Shown here piece by piece: positions 7,657-40,834 of a stretch of DNA of 49,146 bases (position 1 is its first letter; the number at the start of each line of letters is the position of its first letter). This DNA comes from a virus: positions 1 to 49,146 of the IMG/VR virus record IMGVR_UViG_3300014497_000003. One strand, given 5' to 3'. The notes beneath the pieces were generated by a model that was given only the letters and a program-made list of their open reading frames with translations, was not told the origin of the DNA and made no database searches. The position numbers and the translations under genes are program-made.

Positions 7657-8276
7657 TTCTTCACCTGATACTGACGCAATCTGTTAATTTCTGCTAGGCG
7701 CGACATTGCTTCATCGTGTTCTTCTGGAGGCGGCAGGGTGTCGGGCTTACCGAATTTTGATTGCATGGCGCCAGAGAACTCTGTCATGGTCATCTGCCAA
7801 GCCTCAGCGCTTGACAGGCCTAGATGCGCGACAGCTTGAGCAACGAACTCACGAGGCTTGAACTCTGGAACGTATTCCTGCTTCGGCTTCTCGATTAGCC
7901 TGCCTTCCGGCTTAAGGCCGATGATCCCGTGACGCATGAGAGAGCGAGCAATATGCACCATGTCTTGCGCTGGCATGGCGCCAGGAACAAAAGAGCCCCA
8001 CTTGCTACCCATATGGCCAAGCAGTGGCGTCACATCAGCTTCACAGCAAGCCACGAGAACGTCATAGGCCGTAGCCATAACCTCACGCTCCCACGCCCTG
8101 TACGCAGGAACAGGCCAAAATGGATTGAATTTTGGAGCAGAGAACAGAAGACTGAACTTTTCCACGATCTCAGATGGAGATCCTAGAGAATCCATTGCGG
8201 CGAGGGAAGGCCTGAAGAGCCAGTCGTGATCACCGAAACTGACACCCAGTTCGCCAACCGATGTGATCGCTCTCAT
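7653..8276 (-). CDS. Tail assembly chaperone-like protein (DUF6246-like)
   Basis: 207 residues beginning MRAITSVGELGVSFGDHDW with FRPSLAAMDSLGSPSEIV, resembling the DUF6246 proteins found just upstream of tape measure genes. Position predicts a tail assembly chaperone. I did not find a convincing programmed frameshift partner. The chosen ATG is preceded by GGAAGA on the minus strand; a frame extension of 12 codons upstream lacks a better site. An extended -10 (8303-8311) lies just upstream, so the whole tail-tip operon probably starts here. Confidence 0.65.
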   Translation of the reverse strand: MRAITSVGELGVSFGDHDWLFRPSLAAMDSLGSPSEIVEKFSLLFSAPKFNPFWPVPAYRAWEREVMATAYDVLVACCEADVTPLLGHMGSKWGSFVPGAMPAQDMVHIARSLMRHGIIGLKPEGRLIEKPKQEYVPEFKPREFVAQAVAHLGLSSAEAWQMTMTEFSGAMQSKFGKPDTLPPPEEHDEAMSRLAEINRLRQYQVKK

Positions 8277-8302
8277 TTTTTTCTTCCAAAATATTGAAGT
8301 AC

Positions 8303-8311
8303 ATAATATCA
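8303..8311 (-). promoter_or_regulatory. Extended -10 promoter for the tail assembly operon
   Basis: On the minus strand the sequence is TGATATTAT (TGn plus a 5/6 match to TATAAT), 27 bases before the ATG at 8276. No TTGACA-like -35 is present. The element is of the same type as those before the holin, capsid, connector and portal genes. Confidence 0.5.
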
Positions 8312-8346
8312 TGGCAAGAATTCATTTATTTTCAGGGGTTGGCTAA

Positions 8347-9258
8347 TTGAGATCTACAAAAAAAGAAGAATTTTTAGAAAAGGCACGATCCGTTCATGGT
8401 GGAAGGTATGGCTATTCGAACGTGACCAAGTCGAGTTATAGGGATATCGTTTCTATCTATTGCGATGTCCATGGTGAGTTTTCTCAGCGCGTAGCTTGCC
8501 ATTTGAGAGGTCGTGGATGCCCGTCTTGTGGACTGAAATCAAGATCAGATAAGAGACGCCTGGACACAAAATCATTTTGTGATAGGGCCATGGTTATTCA
8601 TGATGGATTTTATTTTTACGATTCCGTAGTTTACGAAAATATGTTCACGCCGGTTAAAATTATATGTCGTGAGCACGGATCATTTATGCAGTCGCCGTCT
8701 TCTCATTTTAACGGAAGCGGGTGCCCTACGTGCGGCACAAAAAAGGCAAGAGATCATCATCAGCACACGCTGGATGATTTCATCAGCAGGGCAAAAAATG
8801 TCCACGGGGAAAAGTACGAATATGGCAAGGCAATTTATATTGAAAGCAAGGAAAAATTATGCATAACGTGCCCGTCGCATGGTGATTTTTTTCAGATTGC
8901 CGCTTATCACCTGTCAGGAAATGGATGCCCATCTTGCAGTCGAACTGGATTCAATCCTGGAAAAAATGGATATCTTTACCTGTTAAAGTCTTCAGACGGC
9001 TCACTGTTAAAAATAGGAGTAAGCCATAATCTCAGACAGAGATTTAGTAGGCTGACTGCAAAAACTCCATTTTCATTCACGATTGAATTTACATCGTTCA
9101 TGAGTGGGCAAGACGCAGCAAGGCTAGAAAAAGAGATTCTTGGTAGATTCATGAGCGCTGGATTTACTGGGTTCGACGGAGCTACTGAGTGGCTTCGGTA
9201 TGACGACGAGATCATGAAATATTTCAAAGATCATGAGCTCAGCGTGTTGACGCACTGA
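8347..9258 (+). CDS. GIY-YIG homing-type endonuclease with three zinc-ribbon repeats
   Basis: 303 residues from a TTG start 10 bases after AGGGG. Three tandem DUF723-like repeats (about residues 8-62, 78-131, 142-198) each carry C-x3-HG-x-F and GCP(S/T)C. They are followed by a GIY-YIG nuclease core: GYLYLLKSSDGSLLKIGVS then RQRFSRL, and a Glu/Trp-rich end (FDGATEWL). It stands alone on the plus strand between two minus-strand tail genes. It is visibly more A+T-rich than they are, as expected of a mobile nuclease gene. It is a paralogue of the gene at 19552-20265 but lacks the conserved leader found there. Confidence 0.8.
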   Translation: MRSTKKEEFLEKARSVHGGRYGYSNVTKSSYRDIVSIYCDVHGEFSQRVACHLRGRGCPSCGLKSRSDKRRLDTKSFCDRAMVIHDGFYFYDSVVYENMFTPVKIICREHGSFMQSPSSHFNGSGCPTCGTKKARDHHQHTLDDFISRAKNVHGEKYEYGKAIYIESKEKLCITCPSHGDFFQIAAYHLSGNGCPSCSRTGFNPGKNGYLYLLKSSDGSLLKIGVSHNLRQRFSRLTAKTPFSFTIEFTSFMSGQDAARLEKEILGRFMSAGFTGFDGATEWLRYDDEIMKYFKDHELSVLTH

Positions 9259-9274
9259 ATAAAATAGATACACT
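9247..9274 (+). promoter_or_regulatory. Promoter for the 9306 gene
   Basis: TTGACG, 16-bp spacer, TACACT. It overlaps the end of the endonuclease gene and lies about 30 bp before the ATG at 9306, giving this small gene its own transcription unit. Confidence 0.6.
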
Positions 9275-9305
9275 ACGCTAACTCAAACGAATTTAAGGAT
9301 GTGAA

Positions 9306-9515
9306 ATGCTTACTCTGATGCTGGTGGTTGGCTTGTGTTCTGACGTTGGCTGCGATTACATTGACTTGACTAGCAGGGAGTCGGTAGTCAGTGATGCTGA
9401 CTGCTTCCAGAAGGCTGAGGCGTATAACGAGTACAACCGGTCTATTTCGGCAGATCCTCGCTTTGCCTGCATTGAACCAAGTAAGTACATATTGCTGGCT
9501 AAGAAGGAAATCTGA
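9306..9515 (+). CDS. Small cysteine-containing protein (moron-like)
   Basis: 69 residues with a short hydrophobic start (MLTLMLVVGLC) and four cysteines (Cys11, Cys16, Cys33, Cys54). AAGGATG precedes the ATG. It is a self-contained plus-strand unit, with promoter at 9247-9274 and terminator at 9528-9546, placed between minus-strand tail genes, the arrangement of a phage moron. The pattern of an early C-x4-C and a later DC loosely resembles DUF1482-type prophage proteins; this resemblance is weak. Function unknown; a cell-envelope location is possible. Confidence 0.55.
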   Translation: MLTLMLVVGLCSDVGCDYIDLTSRESVVSDADCFQKAEAYNEYNRSISADPRFACIEPSKYILLAKKEI

Positions 9516-9521
9516 AGCAAT

Positions 9522-9549
9522 AAAAAAGGCCCCGATTTAAGGGGCCTTT
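9522..9549. terminator. Bidirectional terminator between 9306 gene and major tail gene
   Basis: GGCCCC/GGGGCC stem (9528-9533 with 9541-9546). The minus-strand side is followed by six T, the plus-strand side by TTTGTG. It ends the minus-strand connector/major tail unit and the plus-strand 9306 unit. Confidence 0.75.
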
Positions 9550-9564
9550 GTGCATCTACAGAAT

Positions 9565-10293
9565 TTACGCCACTGTCACAACAGTAGTGTCGGACTTGGT
9601 AGGATCAGAAACAGAAGTAGCCGTGATTGTCGCAGTGCCAGCAGTCAAGCCGGAGACGCGACCAGAGCTGTTAACAGTTGCAACCAGTGGCGCGCTAGTG
9701 GTCCAAACTACGGCCTGATTGGCAGCGGCAGGCAAGATAGCCGAATCGATGTTGGTGACGTTTCCGATAGCCACACTGGCAGTAGCAGGTGTAGTTGTAA
9801 CGGATACGACGGCAATCGGAGTATCTTCAACGATTACGCTAGCCAGACCACCTGGGCGCGAGGTTGCGCTTGCAGTGATCGAGTAGGTAGCGATATCGTC
9901 GTAAGGGAACTCCTGGCTGAATTCGGTAAGAATGCAGAAGCCGATAACGGTGTTGATTGGGCCGGTAAGGCGCAACCAGATGTACGGTTGTGGGTCGGTA
10001 ACAAAGTGATCAAACAGCAATTGCTGGTTCGAGGTTGTGCCATCGTCACGCTTGGTAACGCCATCGATAGACACTTCGAAGGTTTTATAGGTGATCAGTG
10101 TGTCACGGAAGCCGCCTACGGAATCGTCTGCGGTAGCATCAACAGTGTCGGCGCTCATAGTCAGCGATTTGTTGCGAGCGGCACCCAGCGGAAGCCATGT
10201 CAGCGTCATCGGATCAACATCACCGCAAGCTAGAGCAAATTCTGCGAGAACGCTCTTACCTACGAATTTAGAACTTGCACAGTTAAGGGCCAT
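9565..10293 (-). CDS. Major tail tube protein with C-terminal Ig-like (BIG_2) domain
   Basis: 242 residues. The N-terminal ~155 residues (LTWLPLGAARNKSLTMSAD, FEVSIDGVTKRDDGTT, SQEFPYDDIATYSITAS) match lambda V-like tube proteins. Residues about 165-242 form a bacterial Ig-like domain (VWTTSAPLVATVNSSGRVSG, TATITATS). Such Ig domains decorate the tail surface in many siphoviruses. It is followed directly by a terminator. Confidence 0.85.
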   Translation of the reverse strand: MALNCASSKFVGKSVLAEFALACGDVDPMTLTWLPLGAARNKSLTMSADTVDATADDSVGGFRDTLITYKTFEVSIDGVTKRDDGTTSNQQLLFDHFVTDPQPYIWLRLTGPINTVIGFCILTEFSQEFPYDDIATYSITASATSRPGGLASVIVEDTPIAVVSVTTTPATASVAIGNVTNIDSAILPAAANQAVVWTTSAPLVATVNSSGRVSGLTAGTATITATSVSDPTKSDTTVVTVA

Positions 10294-10751: not shown

Positions 10752-11164
10752 TAGACTTTCATCCCGCGTTGAATGATTGCATCGATTGCCGCTCGAGCAT
10801 CAGAATCTTCGAATGCCTTGCGCAGAAACTCAGGCTCACCGTCTTTATCCCAAAAATTACCACGAGACGGATCTGATTTTGATCGCGGGGTATTTGTTCC
10901 GAGAAGGGTGCCTTTTGCATCATGTACGGCAGCGGCATATGCAGCGGTGTATCCAATAGCCCCGACAACCCTAGTGCCGTAAGCAGTGATCTTTCTGTAT
11001 TGACTGTTTATAAGGTTGCTGGTGTCGATTGGTGTCATTGTTGCTGCAAAGGCTGACGCCTCAATAAGCACTTCCGTCAGCGTCTTCTCTGCTTTAGGCC
11101 CGGATATGTCGCCGAATATCTTGCGTAATTGCTGGCGTACTTCCTTAAGCCCCTTGACCGGCAT
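10751..11164 (-). CDS. HK97 gp10-like head-tail connector
   Basis: 137 residues. TPIDTSNLINSQYRK followed by GAIGYTAAYAAAVHDAKG is the characteristic pattern of the HK97 gp10 / minor tail family, expected between connector and tail terminator. The start overlaps the previous stop by one base. The C-terminal FLRKAFEDSDARAAID segment is also typical. Confidence 0.8.
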   Translation of the reverse strand: MPVKGLKEVRQQLRKIFGDISGPKAEKTLTEVLIEASAFAATMTPIDTSNLINSQYRKITAYGTRVVGAIGYTAAYAAAVHDAKGTLLGTNTPRSKSDPSRGNFWDKDGEPEFLRKAFEDSDARAAIDAIIQRGMKV

Positions 11165-11508
11165 CAGACAGTCTCCAGATCGTACTCATCCTCATAACCC
11201 ATAGCCGACATGCCATGACGAGCGATCTTGCGAATCTCTGCGGCTGATACTGCATCCCACGTTTGCGCGGTTGTGTCGCCGTATGCGATGCGGTCTAGGT
11301 AAGCTGGCCGAGTGTCGCCCGTGTAATAGATGTCCCGTGTTACGAATTCAGCGCCTTCAGTGTCGCGTGATTGGCGCGATACGCCTTCGTGACCACAAAG
11401 GATGGTGTATGGTGTTCCGTATGTTACGCCGCCGCCCCAATCGCCTTCTGCGAGCCTTGGGTACACGGTTGCAGTGTCGATCATGTACCACGCGGACATG
11501 AAGGCCAT
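11164..11508 (-). CDS. Head-tail joining protein, putative
   Basis: 114 residues (MAFMSAWYMIDTATVYPRLA...), with an acidic C-terminus. The start at 11508 overlaps the preceding stop as TAATG, with GGAAG upstream; a second in-frame ATG lies 9 bases later. Its place, second after the adaptor and before gp10-like, predicts a stopper/joining protein. The assignment is positional; the sequence has no motif I can name. Confidence 0.55.
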   Translation of the reverse strand: MAFMSAWYMIDTATVYPRLAEGDWGGGVTYGTPYTILCGHEGVSRQSRDTEGAEFVTRDIYYTGDTRPAYLDRIAYGDTTAQTWDAVSAAEIRKIARHGMSAMGYEDEYDLETV

Positions 11509-11897
11509 TAGCAGCACTTCCCGCCAGTCGATACCCATAGGCCGGCTGATGCGCCAGGTTCAGGAGGAATTACAGAGGCGGTACAACCAGAAGTGTCCAG
11601 CGCATTAAGAAGAGACCGCAGAGAGCGATACCTGTCAACAAAAGAGCCCCAGCGAAAAGACTGAGAAGCACCAGACGGAGCACTTTGCGAGCTAATCTGG
11701 CGATCCACATTGACATAGCCTGTAAGTCCAAGCAGGTACAGATAGATAAGAGCCTGAGTTGAGGCAGGATATCCAGCGCCATCAAGGCATGGCTGAATGA
11801 CCTCTACCGAATCAATCCAGAGTTGCAGCAAAAAATCTGGCGGGACAGGGATGCCGTACGCCAAAAAATATGCCTTGATGTCATCGATGCTTGGCAT
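11508..11897 (-). CDS. Head-tail adaptor protein, putative
   Basis: 129 residues (MPSIDDIKAYFLAYG...). It is helical, with WIDSVEVIQPCLDG and ALIYLYLLGLTGY, resembling adaptor (gp6-like / DUF7370-like) proteins that bind under the portal. The ATG at 11897 is used because AGGTGG lies 5 bases ahead; a GTG nine bases earlier is the alternative. It is the first gene of the connector-major tail unit, just after an extended -10. Confidence 0.6.
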   Translation of the reverse strand: MPSIDDIKAYFLAYGIPVPPDFLLQLWIDSVEVIQPCLDGAGYPASTQALIYLYLLGLTGYVNVDRQISSQSAPSGASQSFRWGSFVDRYRSLRSLLNALDTSGCTASVIPPEPGASAGLWVSTGGKCC

Positions 11898-11908
11898 TTT
11901 CGCCACCT

Positions 11909-11941: not shown

Positions 11942-11970
11942 TTGACGTAGAATCTGCGAGGGAATAGCCT
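11942..11970 (+). promoter_or_regulatory. Promoter for the PhaZ cassette
   Basis: TTGACG, 17-bp spacer, TAGCCT on the plus strand, 33 bp before the small gene at 12004. It is divergent to the connector promoter. Confidence 0.5.
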
Positions 11971-12003: not shown

Positions 12004-12150
12004 ATGACCTTCACCGTACAGAAAGCCCGCAACACCTTCACCGTAACCAGCGGCGAAATGATCATCGGCAGTTTCAAGACTGAACAAGAAGCCAAAGCCG
12101 AAGCGGATCGAATGACAGCAGAATACGAGCGTGTACTGAGTTTCTTGTAG
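12004..12150 (+). CDS. 48-residue protein upstream of phaZ
   Basis: MTFTVQKARNTFTV..., 48 residues, predicted beta strands then a charged helix (TEQEAKAEADRMTAEYERV). AGGAAA precedes the ATG. It is first in the plus-strand cassette with phaZ 19 bases downstream. The shape (short beta hairpin, then a helix) is common among small phage and Pseudomonas proteins; no function is evident. Confidence 0.6.
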   Translation: MTFTVQKARNTFTVTSGEMIIGSFKTEQEAKAEADRMTAEYERVLSFL

Positions 12151-12169
12151 TCTCAACCAAAGGAATGCC

Positions 12170-12997
12170 ATGAGCTGCTTAACGGAAATAAAAACAACAC
12201 CATTCGTTTACCGCACAGTCATTATCGACGGACAGACAATCCGCACGGCTGTTCGTCCAGGCAAATCAACTCTTACGCCCCTGCTGTTTTTTAACGGTAT
12301 CGGCGCATCACTGGAACTTGTATTTCCACTTGTTGCCGCACTAGATCCGGATCTAGAGGTGATCGCCTTTGATGTGCCTGGCGTTGGTGGATCGGCAACA
12401 CCTCTGTTGCCTTACACCTTCAGCAGTCTTGCGCGACTCGTTACGAGAATGCTTGATGTGCTGGATTACGACGAGGTGACAGTTGCAGGCGTTTCATGGG
12501 GCGGATTCCTTGCTCAGCAGTTCGCCTACGATCATCCTAAGCGCTGCACAAAGCTGATTCTGGCTGCTACCTCTTCTGGCGTTACGATGGTTCCGCCGTC
12601 AATGAAGGTTCTGATGATGATGGCTAGCCCTGAGCGCTACACGAACCCTGAGCATATGGCTGCAATCGCGCCAGAGATTTACGGCGGCTCGTTTCGGAAT
12701 AATCCAGAGCTGTGCGCAAGTTACGCCAACAAAATGAAGGCGCCAACCTCGCAACTCGGGTACAAGCTACAAGGCATGGCAGTCTGGTGGTGGTCATCGG
12801 CATTCTGGCTGCATAAGATCAAGCAGCCGACTCTCGTTCTAGCTGGCAATGACGATCCGATCATTCCGCTGGTCAATATGGAATTCATCGCGCGACGCAT
12901 TCCTAACGCTGAAATGCACGTCATTGACGACGGGCATTTGTTTCTGGTGACTAAGGCTAAGGAGATTGCGCCGAAAATAATGAAATTTCTTGCTTGA
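12170..12997 (+). CDS. phaZ: Intracellular poly(3-hydroxyalkanoate) depolymerase (PhaZ-like)
   Basis: 275 residues, alpha/beta-hydrolase. The sequence closely follows the medium-chain-length PHA depolymerase of Pseudomonas: YRTV-x-IDGQTIRTAVRPGK, TPLL-x-FNGIGA-x-LELVFP, ALDPDLEVIAFDVPGVGGS, GVSWGG, LHKI-x-QPTLVLAG-x-DDP, IIDDGHLFL-like end. The predicted triad is Ser109 (GVSWGG), Asp228 or Asp229 (GNDDP) and His256 (DGHLF); all are present. The family hydrolyses stored polyester on PHA granules in the cytoplasm to 3-hydroxyacids. The C-terminal tail of about 10 residues seen in the bacterial enzyme is absent. It lies on the plus strand between minus-strand head and tail genes with its own promoter, as a moron. 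Release of stored carbon during infection is inference. Confidence 0.85.
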   Translation: MSCLTEIKTTPFVYRTVIIDGQTIRTAVRPGKSTLTPLLFFNGIGASLELVFPLVAALDPDLEVIAFDVPGVGGSATPLLPYTFSSLARLVTRMLDVLDYDEVTVAGVSWGGFLAQQFAYDHPKRCTKLILAATSSGVTMVPPSMKVLMMMASPERYTNPEHMAAIAPEIYGGSFRNNPELCASYANKMKAPTSQLGYKLQGMAVWWWSSAFWLHKIKQPTLVLAGNDDPIIPLVNMEFIARRIPNAEMHVIDDGHLFLVTKAKEIAPKIMKFLA

Positions 12998-13022
12998 CGG
13001 GATTGGATTGCGAGTCTAGTCT
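12994..13022 (+). promoter_or_regulatory. Promoter after phaZ
   Basis: TTGACG, 17-bp spacer, TAGTCT, overlapping the phaZ stop codon. With the terminator at 13121-13143 it defines a transcript of only about 115 nt. Confidence 0.5.
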
Positions 13023-13116: not shown

Positions 13117-13120
13117 TTCA

Positions 13121-13143
13121 AAGGCCCTTGACTGGGCCTTTTT
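13121..13143 (+). terminator. Terminator after the phaZ cassette
   Basis: AAGGCCC / GGGCCTT stem with a 6-base loop followed by T-run. It closes the short transcript from 12994. Confidence 0.75.
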
Positions 13144-13168: not shown

Positions 13169-13531
13169 ATGTTCAAATGGCTAGCATCACTATTCAAGCG
13201 GAAACAACCAGAACATAAACCATCGATAAGTGAGCGGATGGCTGCTCGCGATATGTACGATGGCGCTTTTGCAGCTCCTTTGCGCACAAGCAAGGCACGC
13301 TCATCTTCGCCATCTCGTCACGCCACCTCTTCCCGTAGTCAGCCAGGTGACGTGTTGTCTAACCCGCTAAATCCAATGAATCCGATTGGCTTCAATAGTC
13401 CTGTCTACTACGATTCGACGCCGTCTTACTCGTCGAGTTCTTCATGTGACAGCAGTTCATATAACAGCGGTAGCAGCTATAGCTCTAGCGACAGCAGCAG
13501 CTCTTCATGTAGCAGTAGTGGTGGCGATTAA
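13169..13531 (+). CDS. Serine-rich low-complexity protein
   Basis: 120 residues. Residues 1-15 (MFKWLASLFKRKQPE) look like an amphipathic, membrane-associating start. The region to about 90 is polar, and the last 30 residues are almost all Ser, Tyr, Cys and Asp, ending CSSSGGD. GAGG lies 8 bases before the ATG, and a terminator follows 20 bases after the stop. Ser/Cys-tailed proteins of this kind occur in bacterial genomes without known function. Third element of the plus-strand insert. Confidence 0.6.
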   Translation: MFKWLASLFKRKQPEHKPSISERMAARDMYDGAFAAPLRTSKARSSSPSRHATSSRSQPGDVLSNPLNPMNPIGFNSPVYYDSTPSYSSSSSCDSSSYNSGSSYSSSDSSSSSCSSSGGD

Positions 13532-13550
13532 ATTTCGCGCACAAAACAAA

Positions 13551-13573
13551 GCCCTCCAAGTGAGGGCTTTTTT
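13551..13573 (+). terminator. Terminator after the serine-rich gene
   Basis: GCCCTC / GAGGGC stem (13551-13556, 13562-13567) followed by six T on the plus strand. The minus-strand side ends TTTGTTTTG, so it may also stop the small head genes reading the other way. Confidence 0.75.
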
Positions 13574-14200: not shown

Positions 14201-15211
14201 TTATGCGCCTTTAACGAACTGCGCATAGCCAGCGTTGCCAGCCATGTCGCGCTTGAACTGCGGCGCTACGGCGGTCATGATCTGGAAGCTGTACTCGTCG
14301 GTGAAGTTTTTACGTTCAATCGGCATGGTGGTAACAGGCATCGCAGTCAGGATTTCCAGCACTCGGCGCTCTTTCACAACGGCGAGGATTTCGTTCACTG
14401 GAACGGCAGTGGATGGAACGATGGAGACAACACCAGGGATTGCCATCAGGCGAGCCAGGATGGTGTTCTGCGGCGCTGCGGTCACGTAGTCGTTAACCGA
14501 TGCAGCGAACCAGTCACCGTAGTTCAGGTAGATGGTAGCGCCACCGTAGAAGTTCTTGGCTTGCAGGCCGAGAAGAACACGCTTGATCGCTTCAACCCAC
14601 TGAGCGCCAGTAGCGGTTACCAGATCGACGTTACCGAAGTTACCGGTAGCACGGCCTGGAGCAGTACGCAGACCGTAGATCTGGTTGCCGGCTACGTTGA
14701 ACTTGGTGTCGCCGTTGATCACGAGGTCTTCCAGCTTCTCAACGATACGGCGGTTGCCGTTGTCGCGCGTAGCGGCGTCCAGGTACTGCCAGCCACCATC
14801 TTGACGAGCAGCTTCAACATCGCGCCAGCCGAAGGTAAAGGTGGTGTCATAGATCGGCAGCGGGGTGCCTTCGTAATCAATGACTGGAGCGTCTGCTTTC
14901 GCACGGCTGCGGCCATCAATCGAGCTGTTCACTTCGCCTTGGTCACCGACCTTGGAGAAGTATTGCAGAACCTTGCCGATTGGCACGTTCTTTTGCAGGC
15001 TGGCCAAGTCAGTGAACACGCCAAGCTGCGCACGCTGCAAGGTGATCAGGTCGTTGTCGTAGGTAGCCCAAGCATCACGAGGGATGGTGTAGGCGTTACC
15101 AATCATCTCGCCTTCGCTATCTCGTGCGAGGCGCTCTTGACGGGCGTTGTGAGCGCGACGCTTGCCAATAACGGCAGCCTCTTGCTCTTTGTTAAAAGTC
15201 AGAATAGGCAT
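14201..15211 (-). CDS. Major capsid protein (DUF2184-like)
   Basis: 336 residues. The fold family is indicated by WATYDNDLITLQRAQLGVFT, an ITYEGTP-like DYEGTPLPIYDTTF segment, WRDVEAARQDG, and a conserved C-terminal part (VTTMPIERKNF, MTAVAPQFKRDM). This is typical of the DUF2184/PF09950-type capsid proteins that accompany DUF2213 proteases and DUF1073 portals. The gene is coupled to the decoration protein gene (shared base) and followed by a terminator. Its base composition is more G+C-rich and regular than the early genes, consistent with high expression. Confidence 0.85.
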   Translation of the reverse strand: MPILTFNKEQEAAVIGKRRAHNARQERLARDSEGEMIGNAYTIPRDAWATYDNDLITLQRAQLGVFTDLASLQKNVPIGKVLQYFSKVGDQGEVNSSIDGRSRAKADAPVIDYEGTPLPIYDTTFTFGWRDVEAARQDGGWQYLDAATRDNGNRRIVEKLEDLVINGDTKFNVAGNQIYGLRTAPGRATGNFGNVDLVTATGAQWVEAIKRVLLGLQAKNFYGGATIYLNYGDWFAASVNDYVTAAPQNTILARLMAIPGVVSIVPSTAVPVNEILAVVKERRVLEILTAMPVTTMPIERKNFTDEYSFQIMTAVAPQFKRDMAGNAGYAQFVKGA

Positions 15212-18168: not shown

Positions 18169-19539
18169 ATGACTGTGAAACGCACGCCTGCACTAGATTT
18201 GGCGCTGAACTCGGCATTGAGCGAGCGTCAGGCTGTGATGAGCCGCCAGTCTCTGCTGATGGGCGGGATTGACAATAAGCGTCCTGATGCATGGTGCAGC
18301 TACGGCTACAAGGATGCTCTCTGCTTCAATGACTACTATCGCCTTTTTGAGCGCGGCGGCATTGCTCACGGCGCGGTAATGACGCTGAATGAGAACTGCT
18401 GGTCGACTGATCCAGAGGTTATCGAAGGCGACGAGGAAGATCGCGCCGAGGCTCCGACCGCATGGGAAAAGCAATTCAAGAAGCTGGCCAAGCGCCTGAA
18501 GCTGTGGGAGAAGTTCCGTGATGCCGATATGCGCCGTTTGGTTGGGCGATACTCGTGCATCCTCCTGCAATTCAAGGATTCTAAAGACTGGGATCAGCCA
18601 GTAGGCACGGCATCAGAGAAGCAACTGATTAATCTAATCCCTGCATGGGAAGCGCAAATATGGGTGTCAGCTTGGTACGACGACCCTAAAGATGTGAACT
18701 TCGGCAAGCCAAAGACGTTCATCTACACCGAAAACGCGCTAAACACGAACAAAGATGGCGAGCCGGGACGGATCATCACTGTTCACCCTGATCGCGTCGT
18801 AGTCATTGGCGATATCCGCAACGGTATCCCCTTCCTGCAAGCCGGCTTCAACGACTGCGTGAATATGGAGAAGGTGCTGGGCGGTTCGGGCGAATCGTTC
18901 TTGAAGAACGCTAGCAGGCAATTGGCGATCAATTTCGATAAGGAAGTTGACCTAGACGCTATCGCTCGTGCGCACGGCGTGGCTACAGGCGAGCTGCAAG
19001 AGATCTTCGACGAAGTAACGCGCGGCATGAACCGTGGGCAGGATCAGACGGTAATCACCAAGGGCGCCACTGTAACGCCTCTGGTGGCTAACGTCCCCGA
19101 TCCAATCCCGGCGTTTGATGTATCCCTGCAATCCTTCTGCGCATCTATCCGCATCCCGTCCAAGATCATCGTCGGCAATCAGACTGGCGAGCGTGCATCT
19201 ACTGAAGACCAGAAGACGTTTAACAAGCGCTGCCAGGGTCGCCGGGTTAGCGTGTTGTCGTCTGACATCGAAGCGCTGGTAGATCATCTGATGCGCCTTG
19301 GCGTTCTGCTTACTGTTGAATCGTCTGTTTGCTGGGATGATTTGACCGAATCCAGCAAAGACGAAAAGATCAGCATTGTCGTCAAGATGGCAGACGTTAA
19401 CGCTAAGATGCTCTCTAGTGGCCAGCCAATCTTTACTGCTGAAGAGATGCGCGAGGTGGCGGGGCTGGAGAATGATGTAGAGCTTCCGCCTCTTCCAGAT
19501 GTGACTCCACCTCCAGATCCTACCGCAGTCGTACAATAA
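18169..19539 (+). CDS. Portal protein (DUF1073 family)
   Basis: 456 residues. Diagnostic segments are MGGIDNKRPDAWCSYGYKD, DADMRRLVGRYSCILLQFKD, MEKVLGGSGESFLKNASRQL, GNQTGERASTEDQKTFNKR, and the Pro-rich end. It forms the dodecameric DNA gate of the head. It is encoded on the plus strand, although terminase, MuF neighbour genes and capsid would normally run the same way; terminase and capsid here run on the minus strand. It has its own promoter and a following terminator. Confidence 0.85.
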   Translation: MTVKRTPALDLALNSALSERQAVMSRQSLLMGGIDNKRPDAWCSYGYKDALCFNDYYRLFERGGIAHGAVMTLNENCWSTDPEVIEGDEEDRAEAPTAWEKQFKKLAKRLKLWEKFRDADMRRLVGRYSCILLQFKDSKDWDQPVGTASEKQLINLIPAWEAQIWVSAWYDDPKDVNFGKPKTFIYTENALNTNKDGEPGRIITVHPDRVVVIGDIRNGIPFLQAGFNDCVNMEKVLGGSGESFLKNASRQLAINFDKEVDLDAIARAHGVATGELQEIFDEVTRGMNRGQDQTVITKGATVTPLVANVPDPIPAFDVSLQSFCASIRIPSKIIVGNQTGERASTEDQKTFNKRCQGRRVSVLSSDIEALVDHLMRLGVLLTVESSVCWDDLTESSKDEKISIVVKMADVNAKMLSSGQPIFTAEEMREVAGLENDVELPPLPDVTPPPDPTAVVQ

Positions 19540-20386: not shown

Positions 20387-21292
20387 ATGCCAGGTCAACC
20401 GATTCTGCCTAGAACGCTCGACGATCCCACCATGCAAGACAGTCGCGAGAGGAAATTCATCCGCGACTTTGACCGCCGTGTTGCTGCTGTTGGTAAGGAG
20501 GTTCTGCGGATTCTGCGCGAACAGAACTACACAGTCGTCACTGTAAACGCCATGCAGAACAATTCCACCAGCTACCAGTTCGAGCTTGACCAGGCTATCT
20601 TGCTTGGCATCAATAGCGAGATTGAGCGCATTGCAGAACTGATCTTGCTGGAAGGTGGAGAGCAGGAGCTGTGGAGCATGCGTGCGTATGTCGAGCCGGC
20701 ATACATTCAAGGCACGGCTGTTCAAGCGGCTAACCTGACTGTGCAGAGCGAGTTGTATGCACTGAGCAAGCCTTCGCTCGATGCAATCCTATTCAGCCCT
20801 CCATACCGTAAGCGCATTGGTCTTCTGCGTGCGCGTGAGTTCGAGCTTATGAAGGGATTCACTGCACAGGCTAAGACAGACCTAGCAGGCGCTCTTACTC
20901 GGGGAATGGTAGCCGGCCTTAACCCTAGGGACATTGCCAAAGACATTGCCGCTAGCACTGGAGTAAACCAGCGTCGAGGTGAGAGAATCGCACGCACCGA
21001 GGTTGGCAATGCCTTCCGTCAAGCAAGGATGGATGAGGCTGAGACTGCTAGTATTGATCTAGGCATCAAGACGCTTGAACTCCACTTGAGCGCATTGTCG
21101 CCAACCACCAGACCTAATCACCGCGCTCGTCACGGAACCTTGCACTCTGTAGCAGATCAGCGCGCATGGTGGGCTGAGTCAGGCCAAAGTATCAACTGCA
21201 AGTGCTCGACCGTATCTGTACTTGTTGACGACAAAGGAAACCCACTCTCCCCCGGAATCATCGAGCGAGCCAAGCGCAAACTTGACAAATGA
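20387..21292 (+). CDS. MuF-like minor head protein (SPP1 gp7 family)
   Basis: 301 residues. The Phage_Mu_F domain is at about 155-285: GMVAGLNPRDIAKDIAAS, RRGERIARTEVGNAFRQARM, PNHRARHG, and INCKCSTVSVLVD with paired Cys near the end. Members bind the portal and enter the head with the DNA. On the plus strand with the portal but separated from it by the inverted endonuclease gene; a hairpin element and a terminator follow. Confidence 0.85.
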   Translation: MPGQPILPRTLDDPTMQDSRERKFIRDFDRRVAAVGKEVLRILREQNYTVVTVNAMQNNSTSYQFELDQAILLGINSEIERIAELILLEGGEQELWSMRAYVEPAYIQGTAVQAANLTVQSELYALSKPSLDAILFSPPYRKRIGLLRAREFELMKGFTAQAKTDLAGALTRGMVAGLNPRDIAKDIAASTGVNQRRGERIARTEVGNAFRQARMDEAETASIDLGIKTLELHLSALSPTTRPNHRARHGTLHSVADQRAWWAESGQSINCKCSTVSVLVDDKGNPLSPGIIERAKRKLDK

Positions 21293-26415: not shown

Positions 26416-26444
26416 AGGTTAGACCGCGTGGTTAGCGCGGTCAA
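26416..26444 (-). promoter_or_regulatory. Promoter with a built-in inverted repeat
   Basis: Minus strand TTGACC (26444-26439), 17-bp spacer, TAACCT (26421-26416). GACCGCG and CGCGGTC (26442-26436, 26428-26422) form a perfect 7-bp inverted repeat over the -35 and spacer, a good operator candidate. Confidence 0.5.
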
Positions 26445-28032: not shown

Positions 28033-28428
28033 TCATTGTCCAGTTCTCGCAGGAGTTTTCAGCAGAGACTCAAGATCGATAGGCTCCATAGTATCGGAGT
28101 TGATAACGATATCCTTATCCCATGCGGCGCAGCTCAGGGTCATTGTGTTGATGATCTCTTCACTCAACGCCTCAGCCTTAAGCGCCGAGTAAGCAACGCC
28201 GTCTAGCGCCGAATCATGGTGATACTTGCTCGGGTTCTGCCACTGCCGCACATCTTTCAATGTCTGAAGCAGCAACCATCCCTCAGCCTCGGATAGATCG
28301 CGCCCTGTGATGGCGTTGAAGGCCGTTACAGTGGCACCCATTGAGCGCTCGCCTGTAGGTTTGTCGTACTGCTTGCCACGCTCAGCCTGAACGTCGATTG
28401 CGGCCTGTAGGAATTCGGTAGATTTCAT
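28033..28428 (-). CDS. DUF6378-like phage protein
   Basis: 131 residues: ERGKQYDKPTGERSMGATVTA, EGWLLLQTLKDVRQWQNPSK and YHHDSALDGVAYSALKAEAL. This is the widespread 'ergK/DUF6378' phage protein with conserved His and Asp residues, possibly metal-binding; its role is unknown. A terminator follows. Confidence 0.7.
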   Translation of the reverse strand: MKSTEFLQAAIDVQAERGKQYDKPTGERSMGATVTAFNAITGRDLSEAEGWLLLQTLKDVRQWQNPSKYHHDSALDGVAYSALKAEALSEEIINTMTLSCAAWDKDIVINSDTMEPIDLESLLKTPARTGQ

Positions 28429-38045: not shown

Positions 38046-38074
38046 TTGACTGGAGGAAAGTGGCGGGCTAATCT
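38046..38074 (+). promoter_or_regulatory. Promoter of the recombination operon
   Basis: TTGACT, 17-bp spacer, TAATCT, starting just after the terminator; ATG at 38103. Confidence 0.65.
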
Positions 38075-40432: not shown

Positions 40433-40815
40433 ATATTTTTTCGGCAACTGGCAATCTTGGCAAAGACTGCCGCAAGGGTAATGCCGGCGATACAGCAGTA
40501 GTGAATTTCAGCATTGGCGTTAAGTCTGGCTTCGGCACGAAGGAGCAGACATTGTGGATTGACTGCGCCTTGTTTGGCCGGCAAGCTGAATCCAAGCTCG
40601 CAGACTACCTTGTAAAAGGTCAGCAGGTTGCTGTATCTGGTGAGCTTGGTACTCGTGAACATGAGAATAAGGTCTACTTAACGCTTCGAGTCAATTCGAT
40701 TGACTTGGTAGGCGGCAAAAAAGATAGCTCGTCCAGTCCAGCCCCTCAACAGTCTCGCCCGCAACCTCAGGCACCGGCACAAGACGACTTTGACGCGGAC
40801 TCAATCCCGTTTTAG
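40429..40815 (+). CDS. ssb: Single-stranded DNA-binding protein
   Basis: 128 residues. OB-fold (FSATGNLGKDCRKGNAGDTA, VVNFSIGVKSG, LWIDCALFGRQAESKLADYL, GQQVAVSGELGTREHENKVY), a Ser/Pro/Gln linker and the acidic tip DDFDADSIPF that binds partner proteins. Protects single strands in replication and recombination. Coupled to the previous gene. Confidence 0.9.
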   Translation: MNIFSATGNLGKDCRKGNAGDTAVVNFSIGVKSGFGTKEQTLWIDCALFGRQAESKLADYLVKGQQVAVSGELGTREHENKVYLTLRVNSIDLVGGKKDSSSSPAPQQSRPQPQAPAQDDFDADSIPF

Positions 40816-40834
40816 CCTGAAAAAGCACTCGTGA

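Follow-up and report, generated by a model that had tools for sequence, protein, structure and literature searches.

A phage-type phaZ, predicted to encode an intracellular mcl-PHA depolymerase, as cargo of unrelated bacteriophages

Known auxiliary metabolic genes (AMGs) of phages relate to photosynthesis, nucleotides and sulphur, among others, and the psbA-type AMGs of cyanophages exemplify a host-derived metabolic gene that phages have kept and exchanged. The gene described here, phaZ, differs from these in its pathway and in that what is probably one phage PhaZ lineage spans siphoviruses and jumbo phages. PhaZ frees (R)-3-hydroxyalkanoic acids from medium-chain-length PHA (mcl-PHA); acting on these, the acyl-CoA synthetase and beta-oxidation of the host yield acetyl-CoA and reducing power. 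The PhaZ of Pseudomonas putida KT2440, a TIGR02240 protein, is the intracellular mcl-PHA depolymerase of the phaC1-phaZ-phaC2 operon. Its catalytic triad is Ser102/Asp221/His248, and both an FNGIG loop and the lid hinge YYWQLF are essential to it, deletion of the hinge killing the enzyme (PMC12504323). The PHA content of P. putida is 5% of dry weight with multicopy phaZ, 21% in the parent and 41% in the deletion mutant (PMC3918157).

PHA-synthesis AMGs of phages (phaC, phbB, fadJ, acs and others) have been described from PHA-producing mixed cultures (PMC12013262). These too are phage-carried genes of PHA metabolism, but they are synthetic, whereas the phaZ studied here would degrade the store; the words phaZ and depolymerase are absent from that report. 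The phage esterase/lipase family phrog_789 and the esterases of mycobacteriophages are also alpha/beta hydrolases, with identities of at most about 33% over part of our protein, and are not PhaZ. The PHB depolymerase PhaZ of Bacillus thuringiensis (PDB 8ynv) has the same fold at 20% identity and belongs to the short-chain PHB substrate class. No true PhaZ was found in 50,697 GenBank phage records (best match about 27% identity over most of the length), and no report of a phage PhaZ was found in the literature covered, which excluded most subscription papers and all bioRxiv preprints. The preliminary description of this DNA had remarked that such a role was not described as common; the GenBank and literature searches agree, yet the gene is common in IMG/VR (see below). 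AMGs as such are already known; what appears new, as far as we have searched, is a phage-lineage depolymerase of a host storage polymer common to unrelated phages.

The window, by which we mean the whole stretch of DNA analyzed, is an IMG/VR virus record of 49,146 bases (IMGVR_UViG_3300014497_000003). Its phaZ (12170..12997, plus strand) follows a Shine-Dalgarno sequence, AAGGA, at 12160..12164 on the same strand and is predicted to encode an intracellular mcl-PHA depolymerase of 275 amino acids. Over its full length the protein scores 411.5 bits against TIGR02240, whose curated equivalog cut-off is 250.6. The runner-up families, PcaD and PcaDC, reach about 112-121 bits, far under their own cut-offs, and these scores rule out another alpha/beta hydrolase such as PcaD or a lipase. 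Best matches to other hydrolases, which had been named beforehand as grounds for rejecting the assignment, were thus not what we found. The protein is like KT2440 PhaZ in its length, alpha/beta-hydrolase fold, triad and FNGIG loop. Its GxSxG nucleophile elbow reads G-V-S-W-G at residues 107-111, and aligning the two proteins at the FNGIG loop (KT2440 residues 34-38, kept at 41-45 in the window protein) equates Ser109, Asp229 and His256 with KT2440 Ser102, Asp221 and His248. The catalytic Ser-Asp-His set reported earlier is therefore in place, its plus-strand codons lying at 12494-12496, 12854-12856 and 12935-12937. Ser109 is invariant across the 48 viral and 93 bacterial PhaZ sequences aligned, as are Asp229 and His256 wherever ungapped.

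AlphaFold2 gives a confident model (pLDDT 90.3) of an alpha/beta-hydrolase with a helical lid, and a Foldseek search with this model returns alpha/beta hydrolases, namely esterases and the Bacillus PhaZ 8ynv. The fold alone cannot name the substrate, as Foldseek does not separate PhaZ from other esterases, and our search found no solved TIGR02240 structure for comparison. Twelve phage phaZ copies of the window's group diverge chiefly at silent sites (66 pairs; median dN/dS 0.067, median dS 0.47), and the window phaZ is under strong purifying selection. Two group-1 copies appear damaged: that of contig L014 (4546-5361) lacks four residues across the invariant D68-P70-G71 stretch and that of L015 (2076-2714) has a premature stop, which may reflect assembly errors or decay.

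The phage proteins also depart from the host enzyme. Most carry the residue changes N47S, A113F, G143P, K144S, I158T, S161E and D227N relative to host PhaZ, and the C-terminal tail of the latter (15-20 amino acids) is mostly lost or replaced in phage PhaZs and is missing from the window protein. The window protein differs from KT2440 PhaZ in the phage-type residues N47S, A113F, G143P, K144S, S161E and D227N, in its absent tail and in its altered lid and hinge. Of the 40 lid positions conserved in host enzymes, 15 carry a different, fixed residue in the window's group, whose hinge reads YKLQGM where P. putida PhaZ has YYWQLF. Because the hinge is essential in P. putida, its alteration here means that substrate preference could have shifted. 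We accordingly considered a PhaZ-derived esterase that cleaves some lipid, signal or defence-related ester instead of PHA, for which the missing tail would speak, as would the concentration of change in the lid and hinge, the substrate gates and the most altered part of the protein in this group. The TIGR02240 score, however, is far above the equivalog cut-off, and no other family approaches its own threshold; the hinge of other phage branches (GYYYQ) is close to the host GYYWQ; and the triad, the FNGIG loop and 42-47% of the positions conserved in host enzymes do not vary in any of the phage PhaZs. We judge a change of substrate improbable and retain mcl-PHA depolymerase as the predicted function.

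The record encodes terminase, portal, capsid, major tail, tape measure and tail-tip genes. On the plus strand, phaZ lies between minus-strand tail genes and minus-strand head genes. On the tail side the slot that holds it is bordered by a phrog_786 gene (11508..11906, minus strand), which is conserved in phages, and on the head side by the gene for the major capsid or virion structural protein (14201..15211, minus strand; phrog_771). A promoter-like site, TTGACG-N17-TAGCCT, precedes the cassette at 11942..11970 (plus strand) and is kept in 8 of 10 aligned sequences despite variable flanks. Directly upstream of phaZ is a conserved small ORF of 48 amino acids with no PHROG match (12004..12150, plus strand), homologues of which are present also in relatives without phaZ. 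A second promoter-like site on the plus strand, TTGACG-N17-TAGTCT (12994..13022), overlaps the phaZ stop and precedes the next cargo gene, a plus-strand ORF of 120 amino acids with a serine-rich tail (13169..13531; phrog_13684). Between the two genes is a predicted plus-strand intrinsic terminator at 13120..13141 (-14.0 kcal/mol, z -3.05), with an 8-bp stem, AAAGGCCC/GGGCCTTT, and a T run up to 13144. A predicted bidirectional terminator (13548..13570, z -4.31) closes the plus-strand cassette and separates it from the late genes on the minus strand.

Five copies of the pattern TTGAC-N18-TARNCT are present in the window (11942-11970, 12994-13022, 26416-26444, 38046-38074 and 40790-40818), where 0.15 would be expected; only three of them are independent, since the pattern was derived from the other two. 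The five copies possibly represent a phage-wide promoter family. A generic sigma-70 scan gave nothing convincing (1 site against 4.1 expected). As judged from its sequence, then, the phaZ cassette has its own putative promoter site and two predicted terminators. This part of the preliminary description stands, but the cassette had also been placed within a minus-strand block, and the surroundings are not wholly minus-strand: the portal gene (18169-19539; phrog_146) and a Mu-F-like gene (20387-21292) are both on the plus strand.

A search with the capsid protein identified 38 related loci. Among those that span the slot between the capsid gene and the phrog_786 gene, 11 have phaZ and about 20 lack it, and some of the relatives without phaZ have capsids 99-100% identical to that of the window. 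The presence or absence of phaZ at a single slot, together with near-identical capsids in phages that lack it, indicates that phaZ is optional cargo. Where phaZ is absent, the slot holds endonucleases related to a T5orf172-domain protein that the window also encodes, proteins that on our own reading of the sequences are virion-decoration-like or SPFH-like, or small ORFs. The slot, between 11906 and 14145 of the window, is a cargo hotspot, with other occupants seen, for example, in loci L205, L214, L195 and L221. As expected of an AMG, phaZ is homologous to a host gene, as its likeness to chromosomal PhaZ attests, and dispensable for the virion, about 20 relatives being without it; it also resides in a true phage genome, as the record has genes for capsid, terminase and tail as well and PhaC is missing from related records.

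We identified 51 IMG/VR contigs with a PhaZ relative. Seven representatives of the phage PhaZs, including that of the window, all exceed the TIGR02240 cut-off, at 290 to 477 bits. The PhaZ-like protein of L132 (139.8 bits) is clearly under it and that of L131 (6456-7265; 248.2 bits) just under, so that 49 contigs are counted as having close members. The L131 contig has a phage primase, and its protein is perhaps a more distant phage branch of PhaZ. By shared ORFs, the phaZ contigs form about fifteen groups between which few or no further genes are shared, and the carriers range from 49-kb siphoviruses through records of 104-116 kb to jumbo phages of 229, 280, 284 and 307 kb. In most groups tested the neighbours of phaZ are phage genes, including those for RIIA, a phage RNA polymerase beta subunit, integrase, terminase, primase, thymidylate synthase, DNA ligase and tail fibre J. 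Flanking genes were used as evidence of viral origin because the terminase model PF03237, which matched only 5 of 31 records, proved too narrow as a virus test. Integrase was found in 4 of 25 phaZ records and not in the window, which suggests that phaZ is carried by temperate and probably also by virulent phages. In L110, a phage that also encodes an integrase, the genes flanking phaZ (8804-9964 and 10933-11868) are for a reverse transcriptase (PF00078) and for a C5 cytosine methylase, and in a 116-kb phage contig (L018) an SPFH/Band_7 protein (7992-8855) is encoded about 1.1 kb upstream of phaZ.

The PHA synthase PhaC is absent from all 31 phaZ-carrying viral records tested, and no companion PHA gene was found among the ten neighbouring proteins. 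By contrast, the chromosomal phaZ of P. aeruginosa PA7 sits between two class II synthases. The window gene likewise differs from that of KT2440 in occupying a phage cargo slot without phaC and in its lower GC content. The earlier proposal that the phage carries, as cargo, an intracellular PhaZ of the Pseudomonas type is borne out by agreement among TIGR02240 score, triad, fold model, synteny, selection and PhaC absence.

A maximum-likelihood tree groups 28 of 29 phage PhaZs in a single clade (98/92) next to the PhaZs of Pseudomonas chromosomes (97/93); the one exception, from L129, falls among long branches. When the longest branches were removed from a larger tree, 41 phage and 90 bacterial PhaZs were split by one branch with support of 99. 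The phylogeny that had been suggested as a check places the phage PhaZs on one side of a well-supported branch and all sampled chromosomal Pseudomonas copies on the other. Among the best 80 genome matches listed, the window PhaZ is 66-69% identical to chromosomal PhaZs, essentially all from Pseudomonas, and the highest identity between any phage PhaZ and a sampled chromosomal copy is 73.4%. In 259 of 398 Pseudomonadaceae genomes there was precisely one PhaZ match, whose identity to the phage query did not exceed 72%; a single match at this level in each positive genome indicates that none of the 398 contains a phage-type copy, and prophage phaZ was rejected for this set. Repeated recent capture from Pseudomonas was also not supported, given the single virus/bacteria split and the identity maximum. 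A search by capsid for prophage relatives, run without a positive control, found none in 25 genomes. The GC content of phaZ tracks that of its own phage (r = 0.94, 18 loci), and GC3 of the window phaZ is 0.545 against 0.81-0.92 in host genes.

From these sequence comparisons, the phage PhaZs probably constitute one old phage lineage that has been traded between unrelated phages, which we regard as likely rather than proven because the root of the tree was set by long-branch outgroups and the bacterial side was taken from the best matches listed. The latter would also leave room for the phage clade to be in reality chromosomal PhaZ from bacteria outside the sample, taken up several times by phages. 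Against such a source, those 80 matches all fall at one level of identity and come essentially from one genus, the 398 Pseudomonadaceae genomes reach no more than 72% to another phage member, and phaZ GC follows each phage; we find it an unlikely origin, of little weight beside a single phage lineage. Cellular contamination or a chance passenger, that is, a misassigned bacterial phaZ or captured DNA without function, might be suspected, as IMG/VR contigs are metagenomic and two phaZ copies look broken. The same slot between phage head and tail genes recurs in many contigs, however, and the lack of PhaC in 31 records, the phage-only side of the tree, the phage-like GC and the low dN/dS all oppose it. 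Host contamination is ruled out by PhaC absence, tree split and synteny, and this explanation as a whole is scarcely credible beside that of a maintained phage gene.

The host is most likely Pseudomonas, since PhaZ of TIGR02240 grade occurs mainly in Pseudomonadaceae and the nearest matches of the tail-tip protein belong to Pseudomonas phages (49-51% identity to PS-1 and JBD44). In a class sample of 185 genomes only 2, including the Pseudomonas centre genome, score above the TIGR02240 threshold. The host signal of the capsid is less clear, with phages of Citrobacter, Klebsiella and Mannheimia at about 50%.

We consider it probable that the window phaZ is a phage-lineage mcl-PHA depolymerase and an independently transcribed cargo AMG that mobilizes host PHA granules in infection; enzyme activity, expression in infection, PHA mobilization and benefit to the phage are what we infer from sequence. 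After infection the phage PhaZ would attack the polyester of host granules and free (R)-3-hydroxyalkanoic acids, from which host acyl-CoA synthetase and beta-oxidation would generate acetyl-CoA, NADH and ATP to supply virion production; the host cytoplasm would also be cleared of granules. Extra phaZ copies lower PHA in P. putida, so one supplied by the phage and driven by its own promoter could deplete the reserve while infection proceeds. Several observations weigh against this explanation: the lid and hinge are altered in this phage group, two phaZ copies look damaged, about two thirds of close relatives lack phaZ, and hosts already possess a PhaZ of their own. A second phaZ might sustain or raise activity after shutdown of host expression, or evade host control, and the lost tail and changed lid hint at escape from such control.

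It may instead be that the enzyme acts on PHA for a physical or regulatory benefit, with clearance of granules or release of granule-bound proteins, such as the phasin PhaF, easing replication or lysis. Granules can occupy much of a PHA-rich cell, and carriers as diverse as these, jumbo phages included, fit a physical need as well as a nutritional one. The same reaction yields fuel, though, and sequence cannot separate the two benefits; we rate a chiefly physical or regulatory role as rather unlikely, and favour the mobilization of granules as fuel. With phage-type phaZ in about fifteen unrelated phage groups, use of the host carbon reserve looks like a widespread, undescribed phage strategy. 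The chances seem to us about even that, more broadly, a phage-evolved PhaZ branch, mostly tailless and distinct from sampled chromosomal PhaZ, circulates among unrelated phages, jumbo phages included, that infect PHA-storing Pseudomonas, and takes over granule breakdown from the host enzyme, mobilization of storage polymers being a general phage strategy. The finding is relevant to the way in which phages pay for infecting slow or starved cells, to polymer loss during bioplastic fermentation and to the release of carbon by bacteria, and it adds a diverse set of predicted PhaZ enzymes, possibly useful for polyester recycling.

Two other features of the window were observed. The head module is oddly split, with the portal and Mu-F-like proteins encoded on the plus strand and terminase and capsid on the minus strand; the portal stretch has the same orientation when aligned to several relatives. 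In addition, a minus-strand ORF at 28033-28428 encodes a 131-amino-acid protein with a partial match to phrog_474, a family labelled phosphofructokinase, which is likely to be a fragment or a mislabelled family.
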